Assembly: GCA_026418195.1 (NCBI GenBank)
Contig: JAOABU010000144.1
Location: forward strand, 1-64,000
Direction of reading: 5' to 3'
DNA: 64,000 nucleotides
Source of the DNA: Spirochaetota bacterium
GTDB taxonomy: Bacteria > Spirochaetota > Spirochaetia > DTKZ01
The notes below the pieces were generated by a model that saw nothing but the letters and a program-made list of their open reading frames with translations, was not told where the DNA came from and did not search any database. Below are positions 19,509 to 52,414 of the stretch, piece by piece; position 1 is the first letter of the stretch, and every line of letters begins with the position of its first letter. Both the position numbers and the translations under genes were made by a program.

Positions 19509-19730
19509 ATGATGCTATCTATGCCTATAAAGGTCCTTTTTGGGATTGTGAGGGAAGTCCTATCGGATTGGCAGGTGTGGATAGGGGGGCTTGTTTTTTT
19601 AAGCTCTGCTATCTTAATTGGAAAGGTAACGAAGTTCGATAAAAAACCAAAGGTACGGGTGCGACTTCCGGAGGAGACAGTCCTCTCTTCTGGAGGAACC
19701 GAACCTGCTCCCCCAAAAGGAGAAGTATGA
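19509..19730 (+). CDS. Hypothetical small membrane protein
   Basis: 73 aa, one TM, overlaps the next start by 4 nt. Confidence 0.5.
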   Translation: MMLSMPIKVLFGIVREVLSDWQVWIGGLVFLSSAILIGKVTKFDKKPKVRVRLPEETVLSSGGTEPAPPKGEV

Positions 19731-20350
19731 ATCTTAAAAAGTTGTTTCTACCCAGCATCGTCGGATTGGTATTAGGTACCTTGAGTTCGTGCGTAGACTT
19801 GGAAACAAAGATAGAACTCAATCAGGATGGGTCTGGAAAGTTAGAGTTGGTATACATCGTATCTTCTGCCCTGGTGCAACTTGGTTCTACGACTTCTCCC
19901 GGGGTGAGTCTGCCACTTCCCATTGCAGAAGGGGATTTTCGTCAAACTGTATCTTCCATTCCAGGTCTCAGCCTACAATCCTATGCCCGAAAGGATGAAC
20001 CCGATAAAAGCATCATCCAAGCGTTGCTTACCTTTTCCTCCCTTTCGGATTTGAACAGCCTATTTGGAGGGAAAGATCCTGTAATCTCTCAGTCACAGGA
20101 GGGCTCAGATCGGGTAGTGGAGGTCGTTATCTCAGCAGGCAATCCCGGAGGTCTAGACCCGAAGACAAAAGAACTGGTCAATGCTTTTTTCCCTACCTAT
20201 TCTTTAAAGTTCCATGTGATTCTACCCGGAGCGGTGAAACGGACATCCTCGAATCAGAGCATTGTGAAGGGCACGTCTGCTCAGTTATCCGTACCTATCC
20301 TTAAAGCGTTGGAACAAGAAACACCGATCAAATGGAAAATTTATTGGTAG
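19727..20350 (+). CDS. Putative lipoprotein
   Basis: Signal peptide with lipobox-like LGTLSSC followed by VDLETKIELNQDGSGKLELVY. Confidence 0.75.
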   Translation: MNLKKLFLPSIVGLVLGTLSSCVDLETKIELNQDGSGKLELVYIVSSALVQLGSTTSPGVSLPLPIAEGDFRQTVSSIPGLSLQSYARKDEPDKSIIQALLTFSSLSDLNSLFGGKDPVISQSQEGSDRVVEVVISAGNPGGLDPKTKELVNAFFPTYSLKFHVILPGAVKRTSSNQSIVKGTSAQLSVPILKALEQETPIKWKIYW

Positions 20351-20420: not shown

Positions 20421-21038
20421 ATGGATATTCAATTGAAAGAGTTAATCGAAACAATCAAGAAGGACGGAATTGCTTCAGCGGAGGCAAAGGCTGCCCAGAT
20501 CATCGCAGAAGCAGAACGACAGGCTGAAGGGATTCGGGAGAAGGCTCAGAGAGAGGCGGAAAGAATCCTTCAAGAAGCAAAACGGGAAATCGCGCGTACA
20601 GAACAGGCTTCCCGGGATGCTTTGGTTCAGGCAGGTAGGGATCTTCTCTTAGGCCTGGAACGACGGATTGTTCAGTTATTTGAAGGAGTATTACGAACTG
20701 CAACCCAAGAAGCGATAAAGGAAGAAGGGCTTGTACAGATCCTCACTGCTCTCGTGACTGCATGGGTAGAGAAGAATACTCCAGAGGTAGAGGTCCTTCT
20801 TTCTCCAAAGGATTATCAGAAGCTAGAGAAAGGGTTACAGGCTAGACTGGCTAAGGAATTGAAAAAGGGTGTAGTCATTAAGCCTTCACCCTCGGTAGAA
20901 TCGGGCTTCCGAGTTGGAGAAAAGGATGGTTCCGCATACTATGATTTTACCGCAGAAGGCTTAGCGGAGATTTTGGCGGCTAGTTTGAGCCCCCGTTTAG
21001 CGGAACTTTTGAAACAGGCTGCAAAAACTGAGGGTTGA
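20421..21038 (+). CDS. V-type ATP synthase subunit E (cluster 1)
   Basis: MDIQLKELIETIKKDGIASAEAKAAQIIAEAERQAEGIREKA; precedes subunits A/B/D/I/K. Confidence 0.88.
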   Translation: MDIQLKELIETIKKDGIASAEAKAAQIIAEAERQAEGIREKAQREAERILQEAKREIARTEQASRDALVQAGRDLLLGLERRIVQLFEGVLRTATQEAIKEEGLVQILTALVTAWVEKNTPEVEVLLSPKDYQKLEKGLQARLAKELKKGVVIKPSPSVESGFRVGEKDGSAYYDFTAEGLAEILAASLSPRLAELLKQAAKTEG

Positions 21039-21604
21039 CCTTGGCACAGTACTACTATACCATAGCCGCCCTTCCCTATCTTTCCTTAGAATCTCCTCCA
21101 CCCCTATCCCTTGAAGAGTTTAGGTCCTTATGTAGGGATACCCTCACCGAAACCGATTGGGAGATCTTACAACAGAGTTCCCTCTTTGGAGAGGAACAAT
21201 GCGAGAACGAACTTCTCTCCCAGTGGCATCGATGGGAACAATCCTTCCGATCTGAGCTTGCTCGTTTGCGAGCTGCAAAACTAGGAATAGATTCTGATTC
21301 TATTCCTCGGATCGTCCCCGAATCGGGTAGGGTTCTGGAACTAGCACGGGCAGCATTGATGGAAAGCTCTCCTGCAGAGGCCGAACTCCTCATTCTAAAA
21401 GGGTTCTGGGAGGTTCTGGAAGAACTTGAGGTGAACCATTTCTTCGATCTAGAAAAACTCTTGGTCTACTACCTCAAATTGCAGATCCTTCACCTCCGAG
21501 CCCAACGGAATCGGGAAGAAGGAGCAAAGAATTTCACTTCCATGTATCACCGGATTCGCGAACAAAGGGAAAATCCTATCTTGGAACGCTGGAGTACACA
21601 ATGA
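21035..21604 (+). CDS. DUF2764-like V-ATPase-associated protein (cluster 1)
   Basis: YYYTIAALPYLSLESPPPLSLEEF; positioned between E and A as in Borrelia/Chlamydia-type operons. Confidence 0.75.
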   Translation: MTLAQYYYTIAALPYLSLESPPPLSLEEFRSLCRDTLTETDWEILQQSSLFGEEQCENELLSQWHRWEQSFRSELARLRAAKLGIDSDSIPRIVPESGRVLELARAALMESSPAEAELLILKGFWEVLEELEVNHFFDLEKLLVYYLKLQILHLRAQRNREEGAKNFTSMYHRIREQRENPILERWSTQ

Positions 21605-23376
21605 CGGAAACAAAAGGTAGAGTCGTAGGTGTGAACGGTAACATGGTTACGGTTGCCTTTGATGGACTCGTGACCATGAACGAAGTAGCCTATGTAGGGG
21701 TAGGTGAAAAGAAACTGAAGTCCGAAGTAATCCGCATCCGGGGCAACCTGGCAGACCTCCAAGTATTCGAGATTACTCGAGGAATCGGAGTGAAGGATCC
21801 CGTATATTTCACGGGGGAACTTCTCTCTGTTCGGTTAGGTCCTGGATTGTTACAGCAAATCTACGATGGTCTTCAGAATCCCCTTCCCGAACTGGCAGAG
21901 AAATGTGGCTTCTTTCTTGAGAGGGGAGTGTATCTTTCTCCCCTTTCGGAAACGAAACTATGGTCATTTACTCCTACGGTAAAAGTAGGGGATGTGGTAC
22001 AGAGGGGGGATACGGTAGGAACTGTACCCGAGGGAATTTTTAAACATCGCATCATGGTTCCCTTTAACTTCTTAGATACCTATACCGTAAAATCCATCCT
22101 TCCCCCAGGAGACTACCGGATCACCGACACAGTAGCCGAATTGGAAGACTCCAAGGGAAATAAACATCCCATCACCATGAGTTTCGAATGGCCGGTGAAA
22201 CGACCTATTACTGCATATGCAGAACGACTGCGACCGGACAAACCGATGGTAACCAAGATTCGTATTATCGATACCTTCATCCCGGTTGCACTAGGGGGTA
22301 CGTACTGTATCCCCGGACCCTTTGGAGCGGGTAAGACGGTTCTACAACAGGTAACCAGTCGGAACGCAGAAGTAGACATCGTGATCATTGCAGCCTGCGG
22401 GGAGCGGGCAGGGGAGGTAGTGGATACCTTGAAAGAGTTCCCTCTCTTGATTGACCCCCGAACCGGTCGAACCCTGATGGAACGAACAGTGATCATCTGT
22501 AATACGAGTTCTATGCCAGTGGCGGCTCGGGAATCTTCCGTGTATACGGCGGTAACCATTGCTGAATACTACCGCCAGATGGGGCTCCATGTTCTATTGT
22601 TAGCAGACTCTACATCTCGTTGGGCTCAAGCCATGCGGGAAATGTCGGGTAGGTTGGAAGAAATTCCTGGTGAAGAAGCCTTCCCCGCCTACCTAGAATC
22701 CGTCATTGCCAGTTTCTATGAACGAGCAGGGATTGTTCGCCTGAAGGATGGTTCCATCGGTTCTGTTACCATCGGAGGAACGGTGAGTCCTGCAGGTGGA
22801 AACTTTGAGGAACCCGTTACCCAGGCTACGTTGAAAGTGGTGGGTGCTTTTCATGGATTGTCCCGAGAACGATCCGACGCTCGAAAGTACCCTGCTATCC
22901 ATCCTTTAGAGAGCTGGAGTAAGTACAAAGGTTCAGTGAATAAAGAGATGACCGAGTATGGTCGGGAAATCCTTTTCCGTGGGAATGATGTGGCCCAGAT
23001 GATGAAGGTAGTAGGGGAGGAAGGAACCAGTCTTGAGGACTATATTGTGTACCTGAAGAGTGAATTCCTCGACGATGTATACCTGCAGCAGGACTCTTTT
23101 GATCCTGTAGATTCAGCTGTACCTACCGAACGGCAACGGTATACATACAATTTAATCTTTGAAGTTCTATCCTCTATCTTTAGCCTTGAATCGAAGGAGG
23201 AAGCCCGCAAGTACTTCAATCAACTACGACAGAAGTTCCGGGATTGGAACGGAACCGAATGGGAATCAGAAGAGTTTACTGGCAAAGAGCAGGAAATCCG
23301 AACCTTGATTGGGGAGAAGAAAAAGGGTACTGAAGAGCGAGCTTTAGAGATTCTAAAGAAAGTATCCGGGAGTTAG
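21601..23376 (+). CDS. V-type ATP synthase subunit A (cluster 1)
   Basis: [13 protein letters not shown]-loop, [24 protein letters not shown]. Confidence 0.97.
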
Positions 23377-23386
23377 GAGTAGGTCC

Positions 23387-24682
23387 ATGCGGAAAGTATA
23401 CAGCAAGATAGAATCGATAGCTGGAAACGTCATCACCGTTTCTGCCGAGGGGGTTCGGTATGGAGAACTGGCCGAGGTGAGTTCCCGTCATGGGAGGTCT
23501 CTCGCAGAGGTGATTCGATTGAAGGAAGACAAAGTTTCTCTTCAGGTGTTCGCAGGTTCCCGGGGTATTTCTACGGGAGACGAAGTCCGTTTCTTGGGGC
23601 ACCCCATGCGGGTATCCTTCTCCGACAACCTGCTGGGAAGAATTTTCGATGGATCGGGGCGCCCTCGAGATGGTGGGACCGAGTTGGTGGAAAACCTCAT
23701 CGAAATCGGAGGTCCTTCGGTGAACCCGGCCAAACGAATCATCCCTCGAAAGATGGTTCGTACCGGTATTCCTATGATTGATCTGTTCAACTCCCTTGTA
23801 GAGTCCCAGAAGTTGCCGATTTTTTCTGTGTCAGGAGAACCCTACAACCCTCTCCTTGCCCGAATCGCTATGCAGGCGGAAGTGGATATCATTATTCTAG
23901 GAGGGATGGGGTTAAAGTACGACGATTACCTGTTTTTCAAAGATACCCTGGAACAGGGAGGAGCGTTGAGCCGGTCCATCTTCTTTGTCCATACCGCCTC
24001 GGATCCCATCGTGGAATGTCTCCTTGTTCCTGATATCTCCCTTGCAGTAGCGGAACGATTTGCCTTAAAAGGCAAGCGGGTACTCGTTCTTTTGACAGAT
24101 ATGACGAACTTTGCCGATGCGTTGAAGGAGATCGCCATTACGATGGAGCAGGTACCCTCCAACCGGGGATACCCGGGAGACTTGTATAGTCAGTTGGCGG
24201 CTCGATACGAAAAAGCGGTGGACTTCGAAGGTGCGGGATCCATCACAATCCTCGGAGTTACCACCATGCCAGGGGATGATGTGACCCACCCTATTCCCGA
24301 CAATACCGGATACATCACCGAGGGACAGTACTACCTCCGCAACGGCCGGATCGAACCGTTTGGATCCCTATCCCGTTTGAAGCAGATGGTAAACAAGGAT
24401 ACCCGAGCAGACCATCGGGCATTGATGGATGCCATGATTAAGTTGTACGCAGCCTATAAGGAATCTTTGGAAAAGAAATCCATGGGATTCCGCATGTCTG
24501 AGTGGGACAACAAACTTTTAAAATATGGTGCCATTTTCGAGAAGGAAATGATGGATCTTTCAGTGAATATTCCGTTGGAACAAGCGCTGGACAATGGATG
24601 GAGGATTCTAGCCGAATGCTTCACCAAGGAAGAAACGGGTTTACGGTCCGATTTAATAGCAAAGTTCTGGCCAGTGAAGTAA
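23387..24682 (+). CDS. V-type ATP synthase subunit B (cluster 1)
   Basis: [37 protein letters not shown]. Confidence 0.97.
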
Positions 24683-24686
24683 GGGT

Positions 24687-25286
24687 ATGGCACGAATCAA
24701 GTACACGAAAAATGAATTAAAACGTCAGAAGGATGCTCTCAAACGGTTTCAACGGTACCTCCCTACCCTTCAACTGAAGAAACAGCAATTACAGATGGTA
24801 ATCCGAACCGTGGAAGCCCAGGAGAGACAGAAGCGAGAGGCCCAAGAGGTAGTACGCCGGGCGATCGATAGGTGGATCGAGGTATTCGGAGAACCCATCG
24901 ATCTTACAAAGCTAGTCAAGATCGAGAGAATCGAAACAGAAATTGGCAACATAGCCGGAGTAGATATTCCCGTATTCAAAGGAATCAGTTTCGAGAAAAT
25001 CCCCTACGATCTGTATCGATACCCCCTTTGGGTGGATACAGGGATCGAGTATCTACAAAAGTTGATCGCCTTTGACACAGAAATCGAGATCCTCCAGAAA
25101 CAGATCGAACTCTTAGCCCAGGAACTTCGAATCACCACCCAACGAGTGAATCTGTTCGAGAAAGTAAAAATCCCGGAAACAAAAGAGAATATACGAGTGA
25201 TTCGTATCTACCTAGGAGATCAACAGACTGCTGCCGTAGTCCGAGGGAAGATCGCGAAAAACAAGATCGTTGCCGAGAAGGTGTAG
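24687..25286 (+). CDS. V-type ATP synthase subunit D (cluster 1)
   Basis: ARIKYTKNELKRQKDALKRFQRYLPTLQLKKQQL; C-terminal RVNLFEKVKIPE. Confidence 0.95.
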   Translation: MARIKYTKNELKRQKDALKRFQRYLPTLQLKKQQLQMVIRTVEAQERQKREAQEVVRRAIDRWIEVFGEPIDLTKLVKIERIETEIGNIAGVDIPVFKGISFEKIPYDLYRYPLWVDTGIEYLQKLIAFDTEIEILQKQIELLAQELRITTQRVNLFEKVKIPETKENIRVIRIYLGDQQTAAVVRGKIAKNKIVAEKV

Positions 25287-25291
25287 AAGCT

Positions 25292-27151
25292 ATGATCGTA
25301 CCCATGAAAAAGGTATACCTAGTACTTCTCGAATCGAGAAGAAGAGAGTCCCTTGCTCGACTGAAAAGGGTGGGAGTCGTTCATATCGAAACATTCGGGA
25401 AGTCCAGTGAAACTCTCGAACAAATCCAAGAAAAAAGGCAGTACCTTCAAAGGGCTCTCCAGGCGCTTCCTTTTGAACCAAAAGGGAAAAAAGAAGTTTC
25501 AAATGGACCTGTGGAGAAGGAGACCTCCCTTCTCCAGGAAGAACACGTGTACTCGTTGGCTGAGAAGATCAATCAGACTGCAGATCAATTAAGAACCTTT
25601 AAGGAAGAGGCGGACAAGCTTTTCCGAGAAATTGATTTCTGGGAGAAGTGGGGAGATTTTAATCCGGAGGATGTACGAGAATTAGAACAGAAGGGGGTGC
25701 TCCTACGGCTTTATGAAGTACGGGTCCCTATGCTTTCCCAACTCCCAAACACCGGTTTGAGGATTCTTCTGTGGAAGACGAAAGAATATGCGGGAATCGT
25801 TTGGATCGGCCGGACGGAATCCGAATTCCCTAAGGGATTAGAACCTCTTCCCCTTCCTAGAAAAGGGTTATCTCTTCTTCGAGCAGAGTATAGAGAAAAA
25901 CGACGGGAGATCCATCAGTTGGAGCGGGAACTATTTGAGCTGTCCCGGTTTAGGAAAGATGTGGAAAGGATGTTAGAACACCTTGAGGAATCCCTTGAAT
26001 TTGAGCAGGTGTCTGCAGATCTGGAACAGGAAGGAGTACTACTCTATCTTTCAGGGTACGTTCCAGAACCCAAATTGAAGGATCTAAAGAAAGCCGCTTC
26101 AGAGAATGGATGGGGTCTACTGATTCGCGAACCTGCACCGGATGAGGTAGTTCCTACTCTCCTTGAAAATCCTCGCTGGATCCGGATCGTACAACCTGTA
26201 TTCCAATTGTTGGGAACCATACCGGGATATAGGGAAGTGGATATTAGCTTCTTCTTCCTCCTGTTCTTCAGTCTCTTTTTCGCTATGATCATAGGGGATG
26301 GAGGATATGGAGTAATCCTGTTTGGCCTTTCTCTCTACTTTGCATCGAAAGAGAAAAAACGAATTGGGGTAATCTCAGATGGGTTACTTCTCCTTTTAGT
26401 AATGGGTTTTGGGACCATCATCTGGGGAGCCCTCACGGGCACATGGTTCGGGTTCGAACCTTTTTCCAAGATAGCTCCCTTTAAGTGGTTCGTCGTACCT
26501 TCCTTGTCTTCCTGGAATCCTCGGTCCAGTGAAACCATTAAGCATTTCACCTTCATTATCGGAACCGTCCATCTTAGCATCGCTCATGGGTGGAACTTCC
26601 TCAGAGAATTTTCGAAAACACCGAGAATCCGTGCTTTCGCTCAGCTAGGATGGCTCTCGATGGTTCTGGGGCTGTACTTCCTGGTCTTGAACTTGGCATT
26701 GGATTCCCGTAAGTATCCTGTCCCTACTGTTGCAGTGTATATGATCCTTGGAGGATTGGCAGCGGTGTTTATCTTCGGTCAGCAGGAGGGAAACTTCATT
26801 AAAGGGGTACTGAAAGGATTCAGTGGATTCATTACTACGTTCTTGAGTGGTATTTCCGTGTTTTCCGATATCGTTTCCTATATTCGACTCTTTGCTGTAG
26901 GGTTGGCATCAATAGAAATTGCCAAAAGTTTTAATGGGATTTCCATGGGACTCATGCAGCATCCCATTGGAATGGTGTTGGGAGTGGTGATCATTATCTT
27001 TGGGCATGGTTTAAACCTTGCCATGGGTGGATTGGCCGTAGTGGTGCACGGGGTACGGTTGAATTTGCTTGAGTTTTCTAACCATCTCGGTCTCGAATGG
27101 TCTGGCTTTGCCTACAGACCTTTTCGGGAACGAGGGGAAGAGGTAATGTAA
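25292..27151 (+). CDS. V-type ATP synthase subunit I (cluster 1)
   Basis: MIVPMKKVYLVLLESRRRESLARLKRVGVVHIE; C-terminal multi-TM DIVSYIRLFAVGLASIEIAKSFN. Confidence 0.95.
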   Translation: MIVPMKKVYLVLLESRRRESLARLKRVGVVHIETFGKSSETLEQIQEKRQYLQRALQALPFEPKGKKEVSNGPVEKETSLLQEEHVYSLAEKINQTADQLRTFKEEADKLFREIDFWEKWGDFNPEDVRELEQKGVLLRLYEVRVPMLSQLPNTGLRILLWKTKEYAGIVWIGRTESEFPKGLEPLPLPRKGLSLLRAEYREKRREIHQLERELFELSRFRKDVERMLEHLEESLEFEQVSADLEQEGVLLYLSGYVPEPKLKDLKKAASENGWGLLIREPAPDEVVPTLLENPRWIRIVQPVFQLLGTIPGYREVDISFFFLLFFSLFFAMIIGDGGYGVILFGLSLYFASKEKKRIGVISDGLLLLLVMGFGTIIWGALTGTWFGFEPFSKIAPFKWFVVPSLSSWNPRSSETIKHFTFIIGTVHLSIAHGWNFLREFSKTPRIRAFAQLGWLSMVLGLYFLVLNLALDSRKYPVPTVAVYMILGGLAAVFIFGQQEGNFIKGVLKGFSGFITTFLSGISVFSDIVSYIRLFAVGLASIEIAKSFNGISMGLMQHPIGMVLGVVIIIFGHGLNLAMGGLAVVVHGVRLNLLEFSNHLGLEWSGFAYRPFRERGEEVM

Positions 27152-27180
27152 ATTTTACGAGAGTGCAAGGAGAGAAACGC

Positions 27181-27612
27181 ATGAACATCGGATTAATGGG
27201 TATTGGGGCGGTCATGGCTCTTTCAGCAGCGGGTTCAGCCCTTGGAGCAGGATCGGCAGGTATGTCTGCAATTGGGGCGTGGAAAAAATGTTTCCTTCAA
27301 AATAAACCAGCCCCCTTCCTTCTCACTGCTTTCGTGGGCGCACCGCTCACACAGACCATCTATGGATTCATTCTGATGAACGCTTTACGAGGTGCCATGG
27401 ACAAGATGGATCCCTGGGTTATCTTTGGGGCAGGGGTGTTTGGAGGGTTTGCCATGGGCATGTCTGCCTGGTTCCAAGGAAAAGCGGGTGCTTCCGCTTC
27501 GGATGCATTTGCGGAAACAGGAAAGGGATTCGGTAACTACATCCTGGTGTTGGGAATCATTGAAACAGTCGCCCTCTTCGTGATGGTGTTTCTGTTAGGC
27601 ATTATAGGGTAG
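27181..27612 (+). CDS. V-type ATP synthase subunit K proteolipid, duplicated four-helix form (cluster 1)
   Basis: 143 aa with two hairpins; APLTQTIYGFILM, WFQGKAGASASDAFAETGKGF, LVLGIIETVALFVMVF; ATG at 27181 preferred over 27097. Confidence 0.95.
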   Translation: MNIGLMGIGAVMALSAAGSALGAGSAGMSAIGAWKKCFLQNKPAPFLLTAFVGAPLTQTIYGFILMNALRGAMDKMDPWVIFGAGVFGGFAMGMSAWFQGKAGASASDAFAETGKGFGNYILVLGIIETVALFVMVFLLGIIG

Positions 27613-27636: not shown

Positions 27637-28674
27637 ATGAAATCTATCGCAGTACAAGTTGGGAGCGTAACCGTTGGAGGGGACGCTCCCATTTCTATTC
27701 AAACCATGTGGAAGCGTCCCCTCCAAAAGGTAGATGAAGGCCTCATTGCAGAGGTAAATCGGCTTAAAGCATTGGGGTGTGATATCCTTAGGTTTGCCGT
27801 TCCTGATATGGAAACTGCCGACCTATTGGGTAGGTTAGCGTCCAGGGTTTCGATTCCCCTTGTAGCAGATATCCATTTCGACTATCGGTTAGCTCTTCGT
27901 TGCCTAGATTACCCTATTGCAAAGATCCGGATCAATCCTGGCAATATTGGTGCTAGGTGGAAGGTGGAACAAGTCGTACGAAAGGCCCAGGATAAGGGAG
28001 TTCCCATACGAATCGGGGTGAATCATGGATCTTTGCCCCAGAAGTTCCAGACCCTACCAGATCCAGCTGCAGCTTTACTCGCTGCAGCCGAGGAAGAGAT
28101 AGAGATCCTAGAAAGCCTTTCCTTCCGTAGCATCATCGTCTCCATGAAATCATCCGATACTGAAAGTACCGTGGAAGCGAATCGGCGATTTGCGCAAAGG
28201 TATTCCTACCCCCTCCATATTGGTATCACCGAAGCGGGTCCCCTCATTCCGGGGATCGTTCGGAGTACCCTTGCATTGTCCCAACTTCTGAAAGAAGGAA
28301 TCGGATCCACCATCCGAGTATCCTTGAGCGATGCACCGGAAACTGAAGTCCTGACAGCCAAGGAACTTCTTTCCGCATTGGGACTTCGGAAAGGGGGAGT
28401 TCGAATCATCAGTTGCCCTCGGTGTGGTCGTTCAGGGTTCGATGTACAGGGTTTCTTGAAGGTAGTAGGAGAGGAATTGCAACAGGATGGGAGGGATCTC
28501 ACCGTTGCGGTGATGGGATGTGTGGTGAATGGTCCGGGGGAGTCCCGTCATGCAGATCTAGGGATAACCGGATCAGGAGATAAAGTAGTAATTTTTAAAA
28601 AAGGCAAGATTGTGCACACTGTTCGCCCAGAGGAAGCCGTGGAAACTTTCTTAAAGGAGTTTAGAAGCCTTTGA
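27637..28674 (+). CDS. ispG: 4-hydroxy-3-methylbut-2-enyl diphosphate synthase (GcpE)
   Basis: ISIQTMWKRPL, RINPGNIG, IISCPRCGRSGFD, VMGCVVNGPGESRHADLGITG. Confidence 0.96.
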   Translation: MKSIAVQVGSVTVGGDAPISIQTMWKRPLQKVDEGLIAEVNRLKALGCDILRFAVPDMETADLLGRLASRVSIPLVADIHFDYRLALRCLDYPIAKIRINPGNIGARWKVEQVVRKAQDKGVPIRIGVNHGSLPQKFQTLPDPAAALLAAAEEEIEILESLSFRSIIVSMKSSDTESTVEANRRFAQRYSYPLHIGITEAGPLIPGIVRSTLALSQLLKEGIGSTIRVSLSDAPETEVLTAKELLSALGLRKGGVRIISCPRCGRSGFDVQGFLKVVGEELQQDGRDLTVAVMGCVVNGPGESRHADLGITGSGDKVVIFKKGKIVHTVRPEEAVETFLKEFRSL

Positions 28675-44136: not shown

Positions 44137-44445
44137 ATGCCCACCGAATCCGAAATTCTCCAACACCTACTGGAAGCTGAACGTAAAGCAAACGAGTTGG
44201 TGAAACAAGCAGAACGCTCGGTGGCAGAAAAGATCGAAGCCGTTAAGAGAGAGAAGGAGGAGCAGTTTCGTCTCTTACGGGAAGAATGGCAGCGTTCGTC
44301 CGAGCTAAAGTTACGGGCGTTTCAGGAGGAACTGCAAGAACAGAAGATCCGCCTTCTATCGCAAAGAAAGAAACACCTCGAAACCATAGAAGGCCAGTGG
44401 GAAAATGCTCGTACTTTACTGAAGACACTTCTAGGAATCCTATGA
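44137..44445 (+). CDS. V/A-type ATPase peripheral-stalk G/H-like coiled-coil subunit (cluster 2)
   Basis: 102 aa Lys/Glu-rich coiled coil, first gene of the second V-ATPase cluster. Confidence 0.7.
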   Translation: MPTESEILQHLLEAERKANELVKQAERSVAEKIEAVKREKEEQFRLLREEWQRSSELKLRAFQEELQEQKIRLLSQRKKHLETIEGQWENARTLLKTLLGIL

Positions 44446-45422
44446 ACCGAGCCGGCCAGTATGCCTACCTTCACGGAAAACTACACGGTATCATGGCCAA
44501 ATCTTTTCTGGATGCACGATTTCAGACCCTTCTCAGGTTGACCAACCTTTCCGATGTATACCGCACTCTATTTCCTAAAGAAGGACTGGATGTTTCAGAG
44601 AAAGACTTGGTACATATAATCGAGAAAAAGTATGAGAAGAAAAATCTTGACAGTTACATTCGTACTCTAACCATCTTTCCCACCCCCCCTCCGTTATTGG
44701 TGCAAGTCTTAAGACGCTTCGAAATCAGAAACGTAAAATCCATACTTCGGAGTATCCATACAGGCCTACCCTTACAAGAACTGTGGGATATTGGAAGGTT
44801 TGGTAAGATATCCCTTCCGATATCAGACTTAAGAAAGGCTTTGGAAAGAACTCCCTATGCGTATCTCCTGGAAGAGTTACAGAAGAAACCTCTCTGGGAG
44901 GTAGAGTTCCGCCTAGATGAAGACTATTATCGTAGTCTGTGGGAAGAAATTTTAGCGTTAGATAGAAAAGAACTATCCATCCTTAGACCCGCTTTCCTCA
45001 CAGAACTACGACTGCTCAATATCCTTTGGGCTTTACGCCTACGGTATTACTATCGGATCGAAGAAGAAAGGGTACTGGAACGATTGTTCCTCCGTGACGA
45101 GGTCGGGTTGGAAAAAGAGGTGAAAATCCTGTATCAGTTGCCTCTGGATGAAGGATCTCAATGGCAGAACTGGAAGTATGGATGGCTTGTAGCTAGTACA
45201 CCGGAAGGACAGATTGATCCTGCTCCAGCCAATTGGCGGGTTTCCAAACGATTGTACCTCCTCTATCGAAGACTTTTCTATCACTGTCCCTTCACGTTAG
45301 CCGCCGTCTATGGATTCTATCGAATGAAAGAGTATGAAGTACGGCTAATCCATACTTTGACAGAGGGTATCCAAATTGGGGTGCCTGAAACAGCGATCAG
45401 AGAGTTGGTAGAAGGGCTATGA
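44442..45422 (+). CDS. V-type ATP synthase subunit C (cluster 2)
   Basis: YAYLHGKLHGIMAKSFLDARFQTLLRLTNLSDVYRTLF; start MNRAGQYAYL at 44442 preferred over 44286. Confidence 0.82.
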   Translation: MNRAGQYAYLHGKLHGIMAKSFLDARFQTLLRLTNLSDVYRTLFPKEGLDVSEKDLVHIIEKKYEKKNLDSYIRTLTIFPTPPPLLVQVLRRFEIRNVKSILRSIHTGLPLQELWDIGRFGKISLPISDLRKALERTPYAYLLEELQKKPLWEVEFRLDEDYYRSLWEEILALDRKELSILRPAFLTELRLLNILWALRLRYYYRIEEERVLERLFLRDEVGLEKEVKILYQLPLDEGSQWQNWKYGWLVASTPEGQIDPAPANWRVSKRLYLLYRRLFYHCPFTLAAVYGFYRMKEYEVRLIHTLTEGIQIGVPETAIRELVEGL

Positions 45423-47404
45423 TCTTCACCGAAAAGATGAGGAAAGTCGAGCTTCTCCTTCTAAAACGGGACATAGATAGAGTTTTGGAATACCTAGGAG
45501 TAGAGCGATGCTTTCAAGTGAGCGATACGGTGGAAAAGGATAAAGGAGAACAATTCTTTAGATATCAGGATCTTCTCCAACGATTGAAATCATCTATGGA
45601 TTTTTTAGGGATACCTTACACCGGAGAAAGGGTGCATCCAAAGGACATTCATAGCCCTACAGAGGGGGATTTGGAATTGTCTGAAAGGATCTTGGAAAAA
45701 ACCTCTTACGTGCTGGAAAGGGAAAAGAACCTTCTGGAACAAAAGTTGTCCTTGGAGTCTACCCTTCAGGAAGTACGGATCTTCCAGCGTATGAATTTTC
45801 CCTTGAAGGAACTGGAGAATGTAACCTATCTGGTATATCGGTATGGGGATTTGCCTCCTACCTACATCCCAGAGCTAGAGAAGAATCTTTTGGGAAGGGC
45901 CGTGCTTTTTGTGTTGGATCCAAGCGGAAAGGTACTGATCGTTGCCTCGAAAAAGGGTAGGTTTGCCCTAGAGACCGAGCTGAAAAAAGCCGAATTTCGG
46001 GAACTCCCTTTACCGGAAAGCGCACGGGAACTTACACCGAGGCTAATAGAAAACTTAAAAATCCATCTTCAGCAGGTGAAGGATCAACTGAACAGTATTG
46101 AAGAGGAAAAGCAAGAGCTGAGACGGACCTATAGAGAGACTATCCTACCCCTGTATGAAATTCTGGAAGTTGGTTTCCGGATCGAAGAGTTGAAGAGCCA
46201 TCTAGAGCAAACGGAACATGCGTTCCGATTGTCTGGATGGATTCCAGAATCCTTTTTGAAAAAAACAGTTTCGGATCTGGATACGATCACAGAAGGGCGG
46301 ATTGCCATTCGGGTATATGAACCGGAAGAAGTCCCTTCCGTACGAGAGGGAAAGGAAAAAATACCTGTTCGGTTGAACCACAGTAGGTTTTTTCAGTCCT
46401 TCGATGGCATTGTATTTGCCTATGGTGCCCCTTTGTATGGATCCATAGATCCTACACCCATTGTAGCAATCTTTTTCACTTTGCTCTTCGCCATCATGTT
46501 TGGTGACCTTGGGCAGGGATTCCTAATTTTTCTCTTCGGGATACTGGTAAGCAGAGAGGCGATTCCTCAGCTGAAAAAATGGAAGAAGTACGCGCTGGTG
46601 TTCAAGACTGTGGGGGTAGCTTCGATGATTACCGGTGTCCTCTACGGGTCCTGTTTCGCCAGTGAAAAGCTCCTTAGACCAATTGAACGGGTTCTAACGA
46701 ACCTCGTATTCGGAACACCTAAAGATCGGTTCATTTTCCTAATGCCTACAGAGGGAATTGACCGGATGTTGGCTTTCTTTGGATTTACTCTAGCGATTGG
46801 GGCTGTGATCAATTCGTTAGGATTGATCATCAATATCTACAATAAAATCCGTCAAAAAGATCTTCATCGAGGGATTTTTTCCAAAACTGGATTGGTGGGG
46901 GCTCTCTTCTTCTGGTATAGCCTTGCTCTCGGGATCCGAATTCTCCTTCTCAAGGGAAGGGTGGGAGTCTTCGATGTACCTATTCTAGTTGCCTTACTCG
47001 TTCTGATCTTCTGGGGAGAACCACTAGCACGATGGATCGAGGGTAAACGACCGCTATTTCCCGAAGGATTCTTTCCCTTCTTTATGGAAGGGATCGTGGA
47101 GGTTTTAGAATCGGTCTCCTATTACATTTCCAATTCGGTAAGCTTCCTACGTGTGGGAGCCTTTGCTTTATCCCATACGGTGTTAAGCTTAATTGTATTT
47201 CAGATTGCCGAATTAATGCAGTCCCTACCGGGGAGTCTATTGTTCCAAGCCCTTACTGTATTGATTGGAAATGCATTGATCCTTGTACTGGAGGGACTTA
47301 TTGTAACCATCCAAGTGATTCGATTGCACTACTACGAGTTTTTCTCCAAATTCTTTACCGAATCAGGAACTCCGTTCAAGCCATTTGACTTGACACATGC
47401 ATAG
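45419..47404 (+). CDS. V-type ATP synthase subunit I (cluster 2)
   Basis: FTEKMRKVELLLLKRDIDRVLEYLG; C-terminal multi-TM SVSYYISNSVSFLRVGAFALSH. Confidence 0.93.
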   Translation: MIFTEKMRKVELLLLKRDIDRVLEYLGVERCFQVSDTVEKDKGEQFFRYQDLLQRLKSSMDFLGIPYTGERVHPKDIHSPTEGDLELSERILEKTSYVLEREKNLLEQKLSLESTLQEVRIFQRMNFPLKELENVTYLVYRYGDLPPTYIPELEKNLLGRAVLFVLDPSGKVLIVASKKGRFALETELKKAEFRELPLPESARELTPRLIENLKIHLQQVKDQLNSIEEEKQELRRTYRETILPLYEILEVGFRIEELKSHLEQTEHAFRLSGWIPESFLKKTVSDLDTITEGRIAIRVYEPEEVPSVREGKEKIPVRLNHSRFFQSFDGIVFAYGAPLYGSIDPTPIVAIFFTLLFAIMFGDLGQGFLIFLFGILVSREAIPQLKKWKKYALVFKTVGVASMITGVLYGSCFASEKLLRPIERVLTNLVFGTPKDRFIFLMPTEGIDRMLAFFGFTLAIGAVINSLGLIINIYNKIRQKDLHRGIFSKTGLVGALFFWYSLALGIRILLLKGRVGVFDVPILVALLVLIFWGEPLARWIEGKRPLFPEGFFPFFMEGIVEVLESVSYYISNSVSFLRVGAFALSHTVLSLIVFQIAELMQSLPGSLLFQALTVLIGNALILVLEGLIVTIQVIRLHYYEFFSKFFTESGTPFKPFDLTHA

Positions 47405-47421
47405 AATAGTTAGAGGAGGAA

Positions 47422-47724
47422 ATGGGTATGAAAAAACTGTTATCCCTGCTACTTTTTCTAGTAGGTTTTTCCGGGGTGGTATGGGCTGAACAGGCAGCAG
47501 GAACACAGACTTCGTATGTATATTGGAGATGGATTTCTGCCGCTGTGGCGGTAGGTATTGCCTGCATTGGCGGGGGAATTGCCGTAGGTCAGATCGGTGC
47601 TGCTGCTATGGGGGCGATGAGTGAAAACCCCGAATTGTCTGGAAAGGCTCTTCCCTACGTAGGATTGGCTGAAGGAATCTGTCTGTGGGGATTCCTCGTT
47701 GCTCTGTTGATCCTGTTCATTTAG
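47422..47724 (+). CDS. V-type ATP synthase subunit K proteolipid, single-hairpin form with signal-like N-terminus (cluster 2)
   Basis: GGGIAVGQIGAAAMGAMSENPELSGKALPYVGLAEGICLWGFLVALLIL. Confidence 0.92.
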   Translation: MGMKKLLSLLLFLVGFSGVVWAEQAAGTQTSYVYWRWISAAVAVGIACIGGGIAVGQIGAAAMGAMSENPELSGKALPYVGLAEGICLWGFLVALLILFI

Positions 47725-47729
47725 TGTCT

Positions 47730-48035
47730 ATGGAGTTCTATATCATAGGGGAGGAGGAACTGGTTATTGGGTTTCGCCTAGTGGGAATCGAAGGTAAGGT
47801 GGCTTCGAATCGGGAGGAAGCTCTTGAAGGGTTTCTGTACGTCACAAAAGAATTGAAGCCCCGGGTGTTGATTCTTACTGAGGAAGTGGCAAGTTTTCTA
47901 GAAACAGAAACTGCAGAATGGAACCTCTCGGGCCAGTTCCCTCTGTTGGTGGAGATACCCGGCTTGCAGGGAAAATTACCTAGTAGAAAAACTCTAGTGG
48001 AATCTATCCGCGAAGCCATCGGGATTAGTGTATAA
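47730..48035 (+). CDS. V-type ATP synthase subunit F (cluster 2)
   Basis: MEFYIIGEEELVIGFRLVGIEGKV...VLILTEEVASFL...PLLVEIPG; start at 47730. Confidence 0.9.
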   Translation: MEFYIIGEEELVIGFRLVGIEGKVASNREEALEGFLYVTKELKPRVLILTEEVASFLETETAEWNLSGQFPLLVEIPGLQGKLPSRKTLVESIREAIGISV

Positions 48036-48041
48036 AAAACT

Positions 48042-48635
48042 ATGGAAGAAATTAGAACCAGCGAAAAATTGGAGCAGGAGATCCTCGAGGATGCTCGACG
48101 AAAGGCCGAACGAATCCTTAAGGGTGCAGAAAAATCCATAGGAGAGATAGAAGCTGAGTGGAAAAAGAAAGAGGATGCTTTCCTAGCTGATATGGAGAAG
48201 GAATTGGAAGAGAGAAAAAAAAGAATACAGCAGGAGATTTCCTCTTCTATTCCCTTGGAAATGAAACGGATGGAACTACGGATTCTGAATGAAAAGTTTG
48301 AGACCTTTCTCCAAAAGTTCTTTGAAGAGCTTACGGATGAGGAGTTCACCTCTCTAATTCGTTCGCGGTTAGCCCAGGTAGGTTCCTTTTTTCAGGGTAA
48401 ACCTTTATTCCTTATGTACAACGGATTGTCTCAGGTAGAGTCCTTAGTGCGCTCTATTTTACCCGGGATCTCTATTGTCTCCATCAAGAAGGGGGGACCC
48501 CCGCGGGGGGTTCGAATCCAGTCCGAAGATGGTACAGTACAGTACCGTATAACGGTGACTGAGTTAATGGAAGAGGTGATACAGCGCTATCGTCGGGAAG
48601 TATTTGAGGCTCTATTTCCTGCAATGAAAGGGTAG
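48042..48635 (+). CDS. V-type ATP synthase subunit E (cluster 2)
   Basis: EQEILEDARRKAERILKGAEKSIGEIEAEWKKKE; coiled coil plus C-terminal globular domain. Confidence 0.82.
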   Translation: MEEIRTSEKLEQEILEDARRKAERILKGAEKSIGEIEAEWKKKEDAFLADMEKELEERKKRIQQEISSSIPLEMKRMELRILNEKFETFLQKFFEELTDEEFTSLIRSRLAQVGSFFQGKPLFLMYNGLSQVESLVRSILPGISIVSIKKGGPPRGVRIQSEDGTVQYRITVTELMEEVIQRYRREVFEALFPAMKG

Positions 48636-48647
48636 ACGGGTAGACGA

Positions 48648-50402
48648 ATGGTAGAAGGCAGAATCATCAGAATCAACGGGCCCATTATTCAAGCTGATGG
48701 ATTAGCCCGCGCGGGATTGTACGATGTAGTCGAAGCAGGGAATCTGGGTCTAGTTGGGGAAATTATCCGAATGAACGGCGATGTTGCTACCATACAGATC
48801 TACGAGGATAATACAGGAATGAAGGTGGGGGAACGAGTGTTGTCCCATGGAGAACCCCTTTCCGTACTGTTAGGCCCAGGATTGATCGGTCGAATTTACG
48901 ATGGTATTCAGCGTCCTCTAGATGAACTGTTCCAACGAACCGGGTTTGGCATTGCTCCTGGTGTGAAGACTCAGCCTTTGGATATGGAAAGAAAATGGTT
49001 CTTCAAACCCTTCTGCAAGAAAGGCGACAAGTTAGAAAGAGGAAAACCTTTGGGGATTGTACAGGAAACGGATTACCTGCAGCATCCCATCTATCTTCCG
49101 CCCAATAGGAATGAAGGAACTCTAGCCGAAGTCTGCCCGGAAGGAACCTATTCTCTAACCGAGCCCGTTGCGAGAATGGGGGACGGAACCGAACTGTTTC
49201 TCTGCCATTCTTGGCCTGTACGGAATCCTCGACCCTACCGGGAACGATTGGGAATGGAGGAGCCTCTCCTTACAGGACAACGGGTGATTGACGTGTTTTT
49301 CCCCATCTCCAAAGGAGGAACAGCGGCCATTCCCGGAGGCTTTGGAACAGGTAAAACCATGACCCAGCACGCCATTGCCAAATGGTGTGATGCCGATATC
49401 ATCGTGTATATTGGATGTGGAGAGCGGGGAAATGAGATGACGGATGTACTTCGGGAGTTCCCTGAGATCCATGATCCTCGTACAGGACGATCCATCATGG
49501 AACGGACGATCTTAATTGCCAACACCTCAAACATGCCCGTGGCGGCTCGGGAAGTGTCGATCTATACGGGAGTCACCCTGGCAGAATACTATCGAGACAT
49601 GGGCTATAACGTAGCTATCATGGCCGATTCTACCTCCCGTTGGGCAGAAGCGTTACGGGAGTTGTCTGGAAGGTTGGAAGAGATGCCTGCCGAAGAAGGA
49701 TTCCCTGCATATCTCCCTACCCGATTGGCAGAGTTCTACGAACGTGGAGGAAGGGTTACTACCCTGGAAGGGAAAAAAGGATCCATTACCATTATTGGTG
49801 CAGTTTCACCTCCCGGTGGGGATTTCTCCGAACCTGTTACCCAGCATACAAAACGGTTCATACGCTGTTTCTGGGCGCTAGATAGGGACCTGGCCAATGC
49901 CCGACACTATCCTGCTATATCCTGGATCGATTCGTACAGTGAGTATGGAGAAGAACTGAGAGGATTCTGGGAGAAGGTCAATGCAGATTGGGCTGCAACT
50001 CGTACAGAAGCGATGGAACTGTTGAAACGGGAACAACGATTAGCCCAAATCGTAAAGTTAATTGGTCCTGATGCTCTGCCAGATACTAGCCGACTTGTGC
50101 TCCTCTGTGCCGATATGATCAAGAATGGCTTTCTTCAACAGAGTGCCTTTGATCCAGTGGATATGTACTCTGTTCCGGAAAAACAAGTTATTATCCTGCG
50201 ACTCATCATGGATTTCTATAACCGAGCCCTTCGGATCATTCGAGCTGGGGCTCCCCTATTGAAGCTTCGATCGTTGAGTGTCATCGAGCGCATCGTGCGG
50301 ATGAAATCACAGATCCCCAATGAGAAGTTGGAACTCGTACAAGAGGTGAAGAGCCTATTGGATCGGGAGCTGGGAGATCTTGAAAAGGAGTACAAAGTAT
50401 GA
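48648..50402 (+). CDS. V-type ATP synthase subunit A (cluster 2)
   Basis: [64 protein letters not shown]. Confidence 0.97.
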
Positions 50403-51784
50403 GAGGGCTCGAGTTCAAGGGGCTTCAATCCGTAGAAGGACCCATCATCATTCTAGAGCGTCGAGAAAATGTTGGATACGGAGAACTTGCCCGAATTCGG
50501 GACCGTTCAGGTGTAGTAAAGGTAGGTCGAATACTGGAAGTCTCTGACTCGGCAGTAGCGGTACAAGTATTCGGACCAACGACAGGTCTTTCGACAGAGG
50601 AAACTTCCGTCGAGTTCTTGGGAAAGTCGCTGGAACTGCGGGTTTCCGTGGACATGTTGGGAAGGATATACGATGGACTGGGAAGACCCATCGATGGATA
50701 TCCGGAACCCTTTTCTTCCGAGTTCCGAGATATCAATGGAATACCTATCAACCCTTCCGCTCGTGCCTATCCACAAGATTTCATTCAAACGGGAGTATCT
50801 TCCATCGATGGAATGAACACTCTCATTCGGGGTCAAAAGCTGCCTATCTTTTCAGGTAGTGGACTACCCCACAACAGGCTCGCTGCTCAGATCATCCGTC
50901 AGGCTCGCTTGAAGACAGAAGAGTCCTTCGTAATGGTATTCGCTGCCATGGGAGTAAAGTATGACGTGGCAAGGTTTTTTATCCAAACGTTTGAGGAAAG
51001 CGGTGTTCTTTCCAACGTGGTGATGTTCCTGTCCCTTGCAGATGCCCCTTCTATTGAACGGCTCATCACTCCCCGGTGTGCTCTTACTGCAGCGGAATAC
51101 CTAGCGTATGAGAAGAACATGCACGTTCTGGTGGTACTCACAGACATGACTAACTATTGCGAGGCCCTGAGAGAGATCTCTTCCATCCGGGGGGAAATCC
51201 CTTCTCGAAAGGGGTATCCAGGATACCTATATTCGGACTTGGCTTCCCTCTATGAGCGAGCAGGGAAAGTTAAAACCTCCACCGGTTCTATCACCCAGAT
51301 TCCCATCCTTACGATGCCCAACGATGATATCAGTCACCCCATCCCGGATCTAACAGGGTATATAACAGAAGGGCAGATTGTACTGGAACGGGAATTGTTC
51401 CAGAAAGGGATCTATCCTCCTGTAGCAGGACTCCCATCCCTTTCACGGTTAATGAAGGATGGGATTGGGCCGGGGATGACCCGGGAGGATCACAAAGATC
51501 TTGCCTCTCAATTGTTCGCTGCATATTCCCGGACGAAACAGGTACGGAATCTTGCAGCCATTATTGGAGAGGAAGAATTGTCAACCCTGGATAAGAATTA
51601 CCTTACCTTTGGGGATCGGTTCGAACGGGAGTTTCTCTCCCAATCAGAAACAGAAAACCGTAGCATTGAACAAACCCTCGACTTGGGGTGGAAGGTGTTG
51701 ACTCATCTTCCAAGAGAGGAACTGTACCGAATCAAAGAAGATCTGATTGAAAAATATCTGCCTAAAACTCCTATTGGAAGGTAA
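50399..51784 (+). CDS. V-type ATP synthase subunit B (cluster 2)
   Basis: [51 protein letters not shown]. Confidence 0.97.
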
Positions 51785-51787
51785 AGC

Positions 51788-52414
51788 ATGGCACGACTGA
51801 ATGTTCCTCCCACGAAATCGAATCTTTTTCAGTTCAAGGAACAACTCGCCGTTGCCAAAGAAGGGTTCGATCTTCTGGAACAGAAACGGGATATCCTGGT
51901 AATGGAGTTGATGCGGATGCTGGAACGGGTGAAACTCCTTGAATCTGAGTTGTACTCCTTCAGTGCCAAAGCATATGCCTCCTTACGGAAAACTTTACTC
52001 TCTGTTGGAAGGGAAACCATTCAGGAGATCAGTCAAGGGATTCGGTATGAGTTTACAGTAAAGGAACGCAGCGTGAAAGTAGCGGGTCTCAGCCTTCCTT
52101 CTGTCGAGGTAAAGCCTCCTTCTTTGAATCTTCAATATTCCTTGGTGGACACTTACACGTACACGGATGAAACAATGGTGGTTTTCTTGGAATATCTTAA
52201 AATTATCGCTGAACTAGCCAGCGTACGTACCATGGTCTGGCGTTTGGCAAAAGAAGTGAAAAAGACCCAACGGCGGGTGAATGCACTGGAAAAAATGGTT
52301 ATCCCCGACACATCGGAAACGGTCAGTTATATCACGGCTGTCTTGGAAGAACGGGAGCGGGAAATTTTTACTATACAAAAGATGCTAAAAGGAAAGAGGG
52401 AGGGAATGGCATGA
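51788..52414 (+). CDS. V-type ATP synthase subunit D (cluster 2)
   Basis: NVPPTKSNLFQFKEQLAVAKEGFDLLEQKRDILVMELM; TQRRVNALEKMVIP. Confidence 0.95.
   Translation: MARLNVPPTKSNLFQFKEQLAVAKEGFDLLEQKRDILVMELMRMLERVKLLESELYSFSAKAYASLRKTLLSVGRETIQEISQGIRYEFTVKERSVKVAGLSLPSVEVKPPSLNLQYSLVDTYTYTDETMVVFLEYLKIIAELASVRTMVWRLAKEVKKTQRRVNALEKMVIPDTSETVSYITAVLEEREREIFTIQKMLKGKREGMA

Follow-up and report, generated by a model that had tools for sequence, protein, structure and literature searches.

The DUF2764 protein of a seven-gene V-ATPase operon is probably a strongly diverged subunit C (AC39)

Subunit C of the V/A-type ATPases (AC39; called C in Thermus and d in yeast) is a three-domain protein of about 320-360 aa. 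In the Thermus subunit, domain 1 is built from two terminal segments, 18-77 at the N terminus and 282-323 at the C terminus, and the tip of the D shaft enters the cavity of the subunit, with D-E74 near d-H94 (PMC5758568). Borrelia, Treponema and most chlamydiae have V-type enzymes as their only rotary ATPases (PMC2359735). In Bacteroides fragilis, a V-ATPase that includes a DUF2764 protein was found in 2023 to be critical for survival in deoxycholate; the same paper lists DUF2764 as a protein of unknown function and the enzyme as having too few connecting subunits (PMC10790697). Treponema pallidum TP0425 is listed as a hypothetical protein of 181 aa (PMC3373638), which is the length of the short-form DUF2764 proteins described below. 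A search of the literature outside subscription journals found no paper linking DUF2764 to subunit C. Is DUF2764 something other than subunit C, or is it subunit C itself?

We analyzed a stretch of 64,000 nucleotides from a Spirochaetota bacterium (contig JAOABU010000144.1), here called the window, which holds two V-type ATPase clusters. Cluster 1 (20421-27612) is a seven-gene V-ATPase operon with the order E-DUF2764-A-B-D-I-K (Table 1). A sequence-only reading of the window had singled out the 189-aa ORF between E and A as the one extra gene of this cluster. The gene is real, as shown by its match to the DUF2764 model PF10962 (61.2 bits against a curated cut-off of 24.1) and by 4-bp overlaps on both sides: its TTG start overlaps the stop of E as TTGA (21035-21038), and its last codons run into the beginning of A (21601-21604). 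If read from a second in-frame TTG (21041), the protein begins with xAQYYY, as do most of its relatives. Profile searches also agree with the earlier statement that cluster 1 has no recognisable C, F or G gene, the G models being weak ones.

Table 1. Features of the two V-type ATPase clusters in the window
Feature	Position	Strand	Model match	Remarks
Cluster 1 subunit E (stalk), 205 aa	20421..21038	+	NCBIfam PRK01558, E 4.5e-59 (below its cut-off); Pfam vATP-synt_E, E 1.4e-4	ATG at 20421
DUF2764 protein, short form, 189 aa	21035..21604	+	PF10962, E 1.6e-16	Putative diverged subunit C (AC39/d-type)
Cluster 1 subunit A (catalytic)	21601..23376	+	Pfam ATP-synt_ab, E 1.9e-64	
Cluster 1 subunit B	23387..24682	+	Pfam ATP-synt_ab, E 1.5e-51	
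Cluster 1 subunit D (central shaft)	24687..25286	+	NCBIfam PRK02195, E 1.2e-76 (over cut-off)	
Cluster 1 subunit I (a-type membrane stator)	25292..27151	+	Pfam V_ATPase_I, E 1.4e-8	
Cluster 1 subunit K, 143 aa	27181..27612	+	NCBIfam PRK06649, E 2.8e-65 (over cut-off)	Double-hairpin proteolipid
Cluster 2 G/H-like stalk subunit (weak)	44137..44445	+	PF03179, E 0.017 (below cut-off)	Adjoins C
Cluster 2 canonical subunit C (AC39), 328 aa	44436..45422	+	PF01992, E 1.7e-30	
Cluster 2 subunit F	47685..48035	+	PF01990, E 3.3e-14	True start probably within first 20 codons

The closest named relative of the window is the uncultured Spirochaetales bacterium R1_Bin_Bin_54_1 (L111), with 81% identity in DUF2764 and 94% in subunit A. 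Directly upstream of cluster 1 is a lipoprotein-like ORF without a Pfam match (19727-20350); about nine loci have a relative of it ahead of this operon, the one in L111 with 76% identity. Directly after K is a gcpE/ispG homolog (27637-28674); a related ORF follows K in 14 loci, the GcpE match having been established in L071.

Cluster 2 (44137-52414) has the order G-like, C, I, K, F, E, A, B, D, and hence its own A, B, D, E, I and K. Its AC39 and ATP-synt_F genes are the sole matches to those models in the source genome, which is 98.6% complete; the sole G-like match there (44152-44430) is below cut-off. The sequence-only reading had held that C or F homologs elsewhere in the genome would speak against its view of the 189-aa ORF; AC39 and F homologs are indeed present, but only within this complete second cluster. 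The proteolipids of the two clusters differ, that of cluster 1 being a double hairpin with T-Q-x-x-Y, a central Q and a C-terminal E, and that of cluster 2 (47422-47724) a 100-aa single hairpin with one E. The residue pattern of the former is, we presume, that of Na+-type K subunits, and the ions used by the two pumps may differ.

One scan of named genomes yielded 80 DUF2764 loci, in Spirochaetota, Omnitrophota, Acidobacteriota/Aminicenantes, Auribacterota, Elusimicrobiota and one record labelled Chrysiogenales. As far as the contigs reach, the order E-DUF2764-A-B-D-I-K is kept in all 80; a member of the E family precedes DUF2764 in 78 of them, and the remaining two are cut by contig ends. The gene order of cluster 1 is thus not chance. 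No ORF of at least 60 aa in the 80 loci matches the AC39 or F profiles even at E<=10, and searches with PF01990 found no F in cluster 1, in the 80 loci or free in DUF2764-only genomes. Across 148 genomes from the class, sound DUF2764 matches occur in 110 (not counting two weak ones), AC39 in 74 and F in 69. DUF2764 occurs with neither AC39 nor F in 58 of the 148, several of which are one-contig genomes that are 99% complete, so such an enzyme has no need to obtain F or G from a second cluster. The suggestion that cluster 1 might share the G subunit of cluster 2 is therefore contradicted as a general need, and sharing is also disfavored by the absence of AC39 from 20 of 22 genomes of other phyla. 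To judge from these gene contents, the DUF2764-type enzyme appears to work without a separate C, without F and without a second cluster to borrow from.

Two conserved families that are absent from the window were seen in other loci: a helical protein of about 118 aa with no Pfam match, encoded upstream of E in 24 of the 80 (e.g., L071:5964-6320), and a family of about 133 aa in 28. The former was considered as a G candidate and rejected, because it matches no G model, does not adjoin E and is missing from the window. The only control genome with DUF2764, that of Bacteroides ihuae, also matches PF01992 below cut-off, and this match is probably its DUF2764 gene.

DUF2764 proteins come in two sizes. 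A long form (about 270-290 aa) is found in other spirochaetes in the same operon, E-DUF2764-A-B-D-I-K, and in all 80 loci and three further operons DUF2764 is accompanied by A, B, D, I and K and by no other C. One long form (L157) matches both DUF2764 (PF10962, E 2.3e-42) and AC39 (PF01992, 44.9 bits against a gathering score of 29, E 1.3e-11), its residues 19-240 aligning with positions 58-311 of the 339 in the AC39 model. Seven of 22 long forms match AC39, and at most two match any other unrelated family. In six-frame genome searches AC39 scored over its curated cut-off at the DUF2764 genes of six genomes (G298, G184, G266, G311, G249 and G190) and below it at that of a seventh (G189); in these genomes the places of the AC39 matches coincide with those of DUF2764. 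Profile-profile comparison (hhalign) of 35 long forms from the phylum with AC39 gave a probability of 92%, E 5e-7 to 8e-7 and a score of 56.2 over 207 columns; a first comparison, of class-level profiles of short forms plus five long forms with AC39, was not significant. When the PDB was searched by sequence with a long-form alignment (A5), Thermus subunit C appeared only at E 2.2, and a match to interferon-gamma (E 7.6e-4) was set aside as spurious; a mixed alignment (A2) found no match there. The part of AC39 matched by DUF2764 leaves out the N-terminal 50-60 positions, which in Thermus include the c-ring-binding helix.

The window protein belongs to the short form (about 165-215 aa). All 70 short-form members of our alignment (A4) match DUF2764, and neither they nor the window protein have a Pfam match to AC39. 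The short-form profile scored 20.7 against AC39, which is not significant (shuffled profiles: mean 14.9, sd 2.7, maximum 23.9). Against the long-form profile it gave E 8.2e-28, and the 181 aligned columns take in the C-terminal region by which the long form aligns with AC39. Since the AC39-aligned part of the long form includes the C-terminal part common to the short form, the homology should extend to the window protein, and the link between the short form and AC39 would run through the long form.

About 85 residues of the central part of the long form are absent from the short form, perhaps corresponding roughly to one of the three domains of AC39, and at 189 aa the window protein does not have the three-domain, 320-360 aa layout. 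A D/E-x-x-N motif is repeated in the AC39 domains; in the long form it occurs twice (as N-D-N-K-N and as E-x-D-L-R-N), and there is a C-terminal helix with Y-x-x-K-L-x-x-x-E-R-W. In the short form the N-terminal helices are joined directly to the second motif, here W-x-x-W-E-x-x-L-R-N-E-L. R72 of the window protein is nearly invariant. Because Thermus H94 falls within a motif of this kind, D-L-H-N, R72 would occupy a position that is repeat-equivalent to H94.

DUF2764 is homologous to AC39, and we read it as a strongly diverged V/A-ATPase subunit C (probability about 0.83), most likely with the same job, that of a socket between D and the K ring; the homology, the operon linkage and the absence of another C candidate all favor this role. 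The sequence-only reading had put the 189-aa ORF forward as a divergent C/d-type socket that replaces C. Its homology to C is upheld by the L157 match, the long-form profiles (E 8e-7) and the short-long comparison (E 8e-28), whereas "replaces" does not hold for a protein that is probably a diverged C itself, and the reading is refined in that the version in the window is the shortened one. We picture DUF2764 as a socket of helices seated on the K ring at its cytoplasmic face; it would accept the tip of the D shaft and so link the A3B3D motor with the ring that carries the ions. The long form presumably keeps counterparts of most of AC39. The enzyme would consist of the products of seven genes, namely A, B, D, E, I, K and DUF2764. 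We infer in the same way the contact with D and K, the transmission of torque, the tolerance of a missing domain and of missing F, and a stalk made of E with E. In a tree of subunit A, the AC39-type, long-DUF2764 and short-DUF2764 operons fall into three distinct groups, all with 100% ultrafast bootstrap; taking AC39 as the full-length relative, this would be most simply explained by a single divergence that gave rise to the DUF2764 type and a single shortening.

Could DUF2764 descend from subunit C but now be an assembly factor or regulator, with D touching the K ring directly? The protein is small, the short form has shed a large part of the C fold, and DUF2764 sequences change more quickly than those of A, B, D and K (median pairwise identity 0.38 versus 0.70, 0.81, 0.58 and 0.66, respectively). 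Its rate, however, is close to the rates of E (0.42) and I (0.40), which are stalk subunits, its gene is translationally coupled between those of E and A and is present in every one of the 80 operons, and we know of no rotary V/A-ATPase that lacks a C/d socket. We consider such a change of function unlikely.

That DUF2764 is a part of the stator or peripheral stalk, taking the place of G as the partner of E, is suggested by its position directly after E in operons that have no recognisable G. The AlphaFold2 model of the window protein (from the 70-sequence alignment; pLDDT 90, all helical) argues against this, being a compact multi-helix structure whose sole long free coiled coil is the C-terminal helix 139-179, as does the homology, which is to AC39 and not to G or E profiles; a stalk role is very unlikely. 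Foldseek found no significant PDB match for the model; Thermus subunit C (1r5z) ranks second with E 0.59, and yeast d (8eas_d) is at rank 37. A single-sequence AlphaFold2 model (pLDDT 59) was discarded as meaningless together with its Foldseek search.

Both families are all-helical and the short forms alone score weakly, as might be expected if DUF2764 were an unrelated helical protein and its similarity to AC39 a compositional accident. Such an accident is highly improbable, given that several DUF2764 genes, in different families of genomes, independently exceed the curated cut-off of AC39. Controls for the long-form comparison moreover score far lower (mean 15.7, sd 2.5 and maximum 25.9 for 150 block-shuffled AC39 profiles; 11.6 for the reversed profile), as do other helical subunits (E, F and A profiles all at a probability under 1%), and the gene sits exactly in an operon without C.

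Lastly, Chlamydia trachomatis CT309, whose gene lies at the matching place of the operon, is presumably a DUF2764 protein, judging by operon and by its size of 32 kDa. It was once among the type III secretion candidates screened (PMC3931295) but was reported not to be secreted in either of the scorable reporter assays (PMC12671076), and that DUF2764 is a secreted effector of this chlamydial type is scarcely credible; the non-secretion fits a cytoplasmic enzyme part, and CT309, if it is DUF2764, is better explained as a V-ATPase subunit than as a type III effector.

If DUF2764 is the socket, what of F and G? Subunit E of cluster 1 matches the SctL model TIGR02499 at E 2e-8, below cut-off. In 18 DUF2764-only genomes the G models, which are weak, gave a few sub-cut-off matches, some of them beside DUF2764 at places fitting the E gene; such matches at E would fit an E-E pair as in the FliH/SctL family. 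We tentatively suggest that cluster 1 may encode a minimal rotary ATPase of seven subunit types, with a two-domain, shortened C, without F and with two E-E homodimers as stators, in which case F, G and the full three-domain socket would be dispensable for coupling.

Reading DUF2764 as subunit C would explain how shaft and ring are coupled in these pumps, which would not have lost C after all, and would make it possible to re-annotate the DUF2764 family across many phyla. The short form would then show that a large part of the socket can be dispensed with, and E68, R72 and R79 of the window protein offer concrete residues for testing.

DUF2764 resembles AC39 (subunit C of Thermus thermophilus, 1r5z) in sequence, being homologous to it via the long form, in its helices with the repeated D/E-x-x-N motif, in being all-helical and in the position of its gene, within a V-ATPase operon where no other C is encoded. 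Unlike AC39, which has about 330-360 aa, the long form has 270-290 aa and the short form of the window 189, with some 85 further residues missing; DUF2764 operons also differ from AC39 systems in having neither F nor a recognisable G, and the short forms are not recognised by the AC39 model. In the V-ATPase operon of B. fragilis (PMC10790697) DUF2764 is likewise the second gene and K is a double hairpin, as in the window, but the Bacteroides protein is probably of the long form (the Pfam model has a length of 271) whereas that of the window is short. The V-ATPases of the Chlamydia, Borrelia, Treponema and Bacteroides type, described as a divergent clade (PMC2359735), have the same type of operon, and in our tree too the subunit A proteins of DUF2764 operons form a clade of their own. 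Enzymes of this type were previously regarded as divergent, or as equipped with fewer connecting subunits, and their DUF2764 as a protein of unknown function; in the present analysis DUF2764 is instead probably their diverged subunit C.
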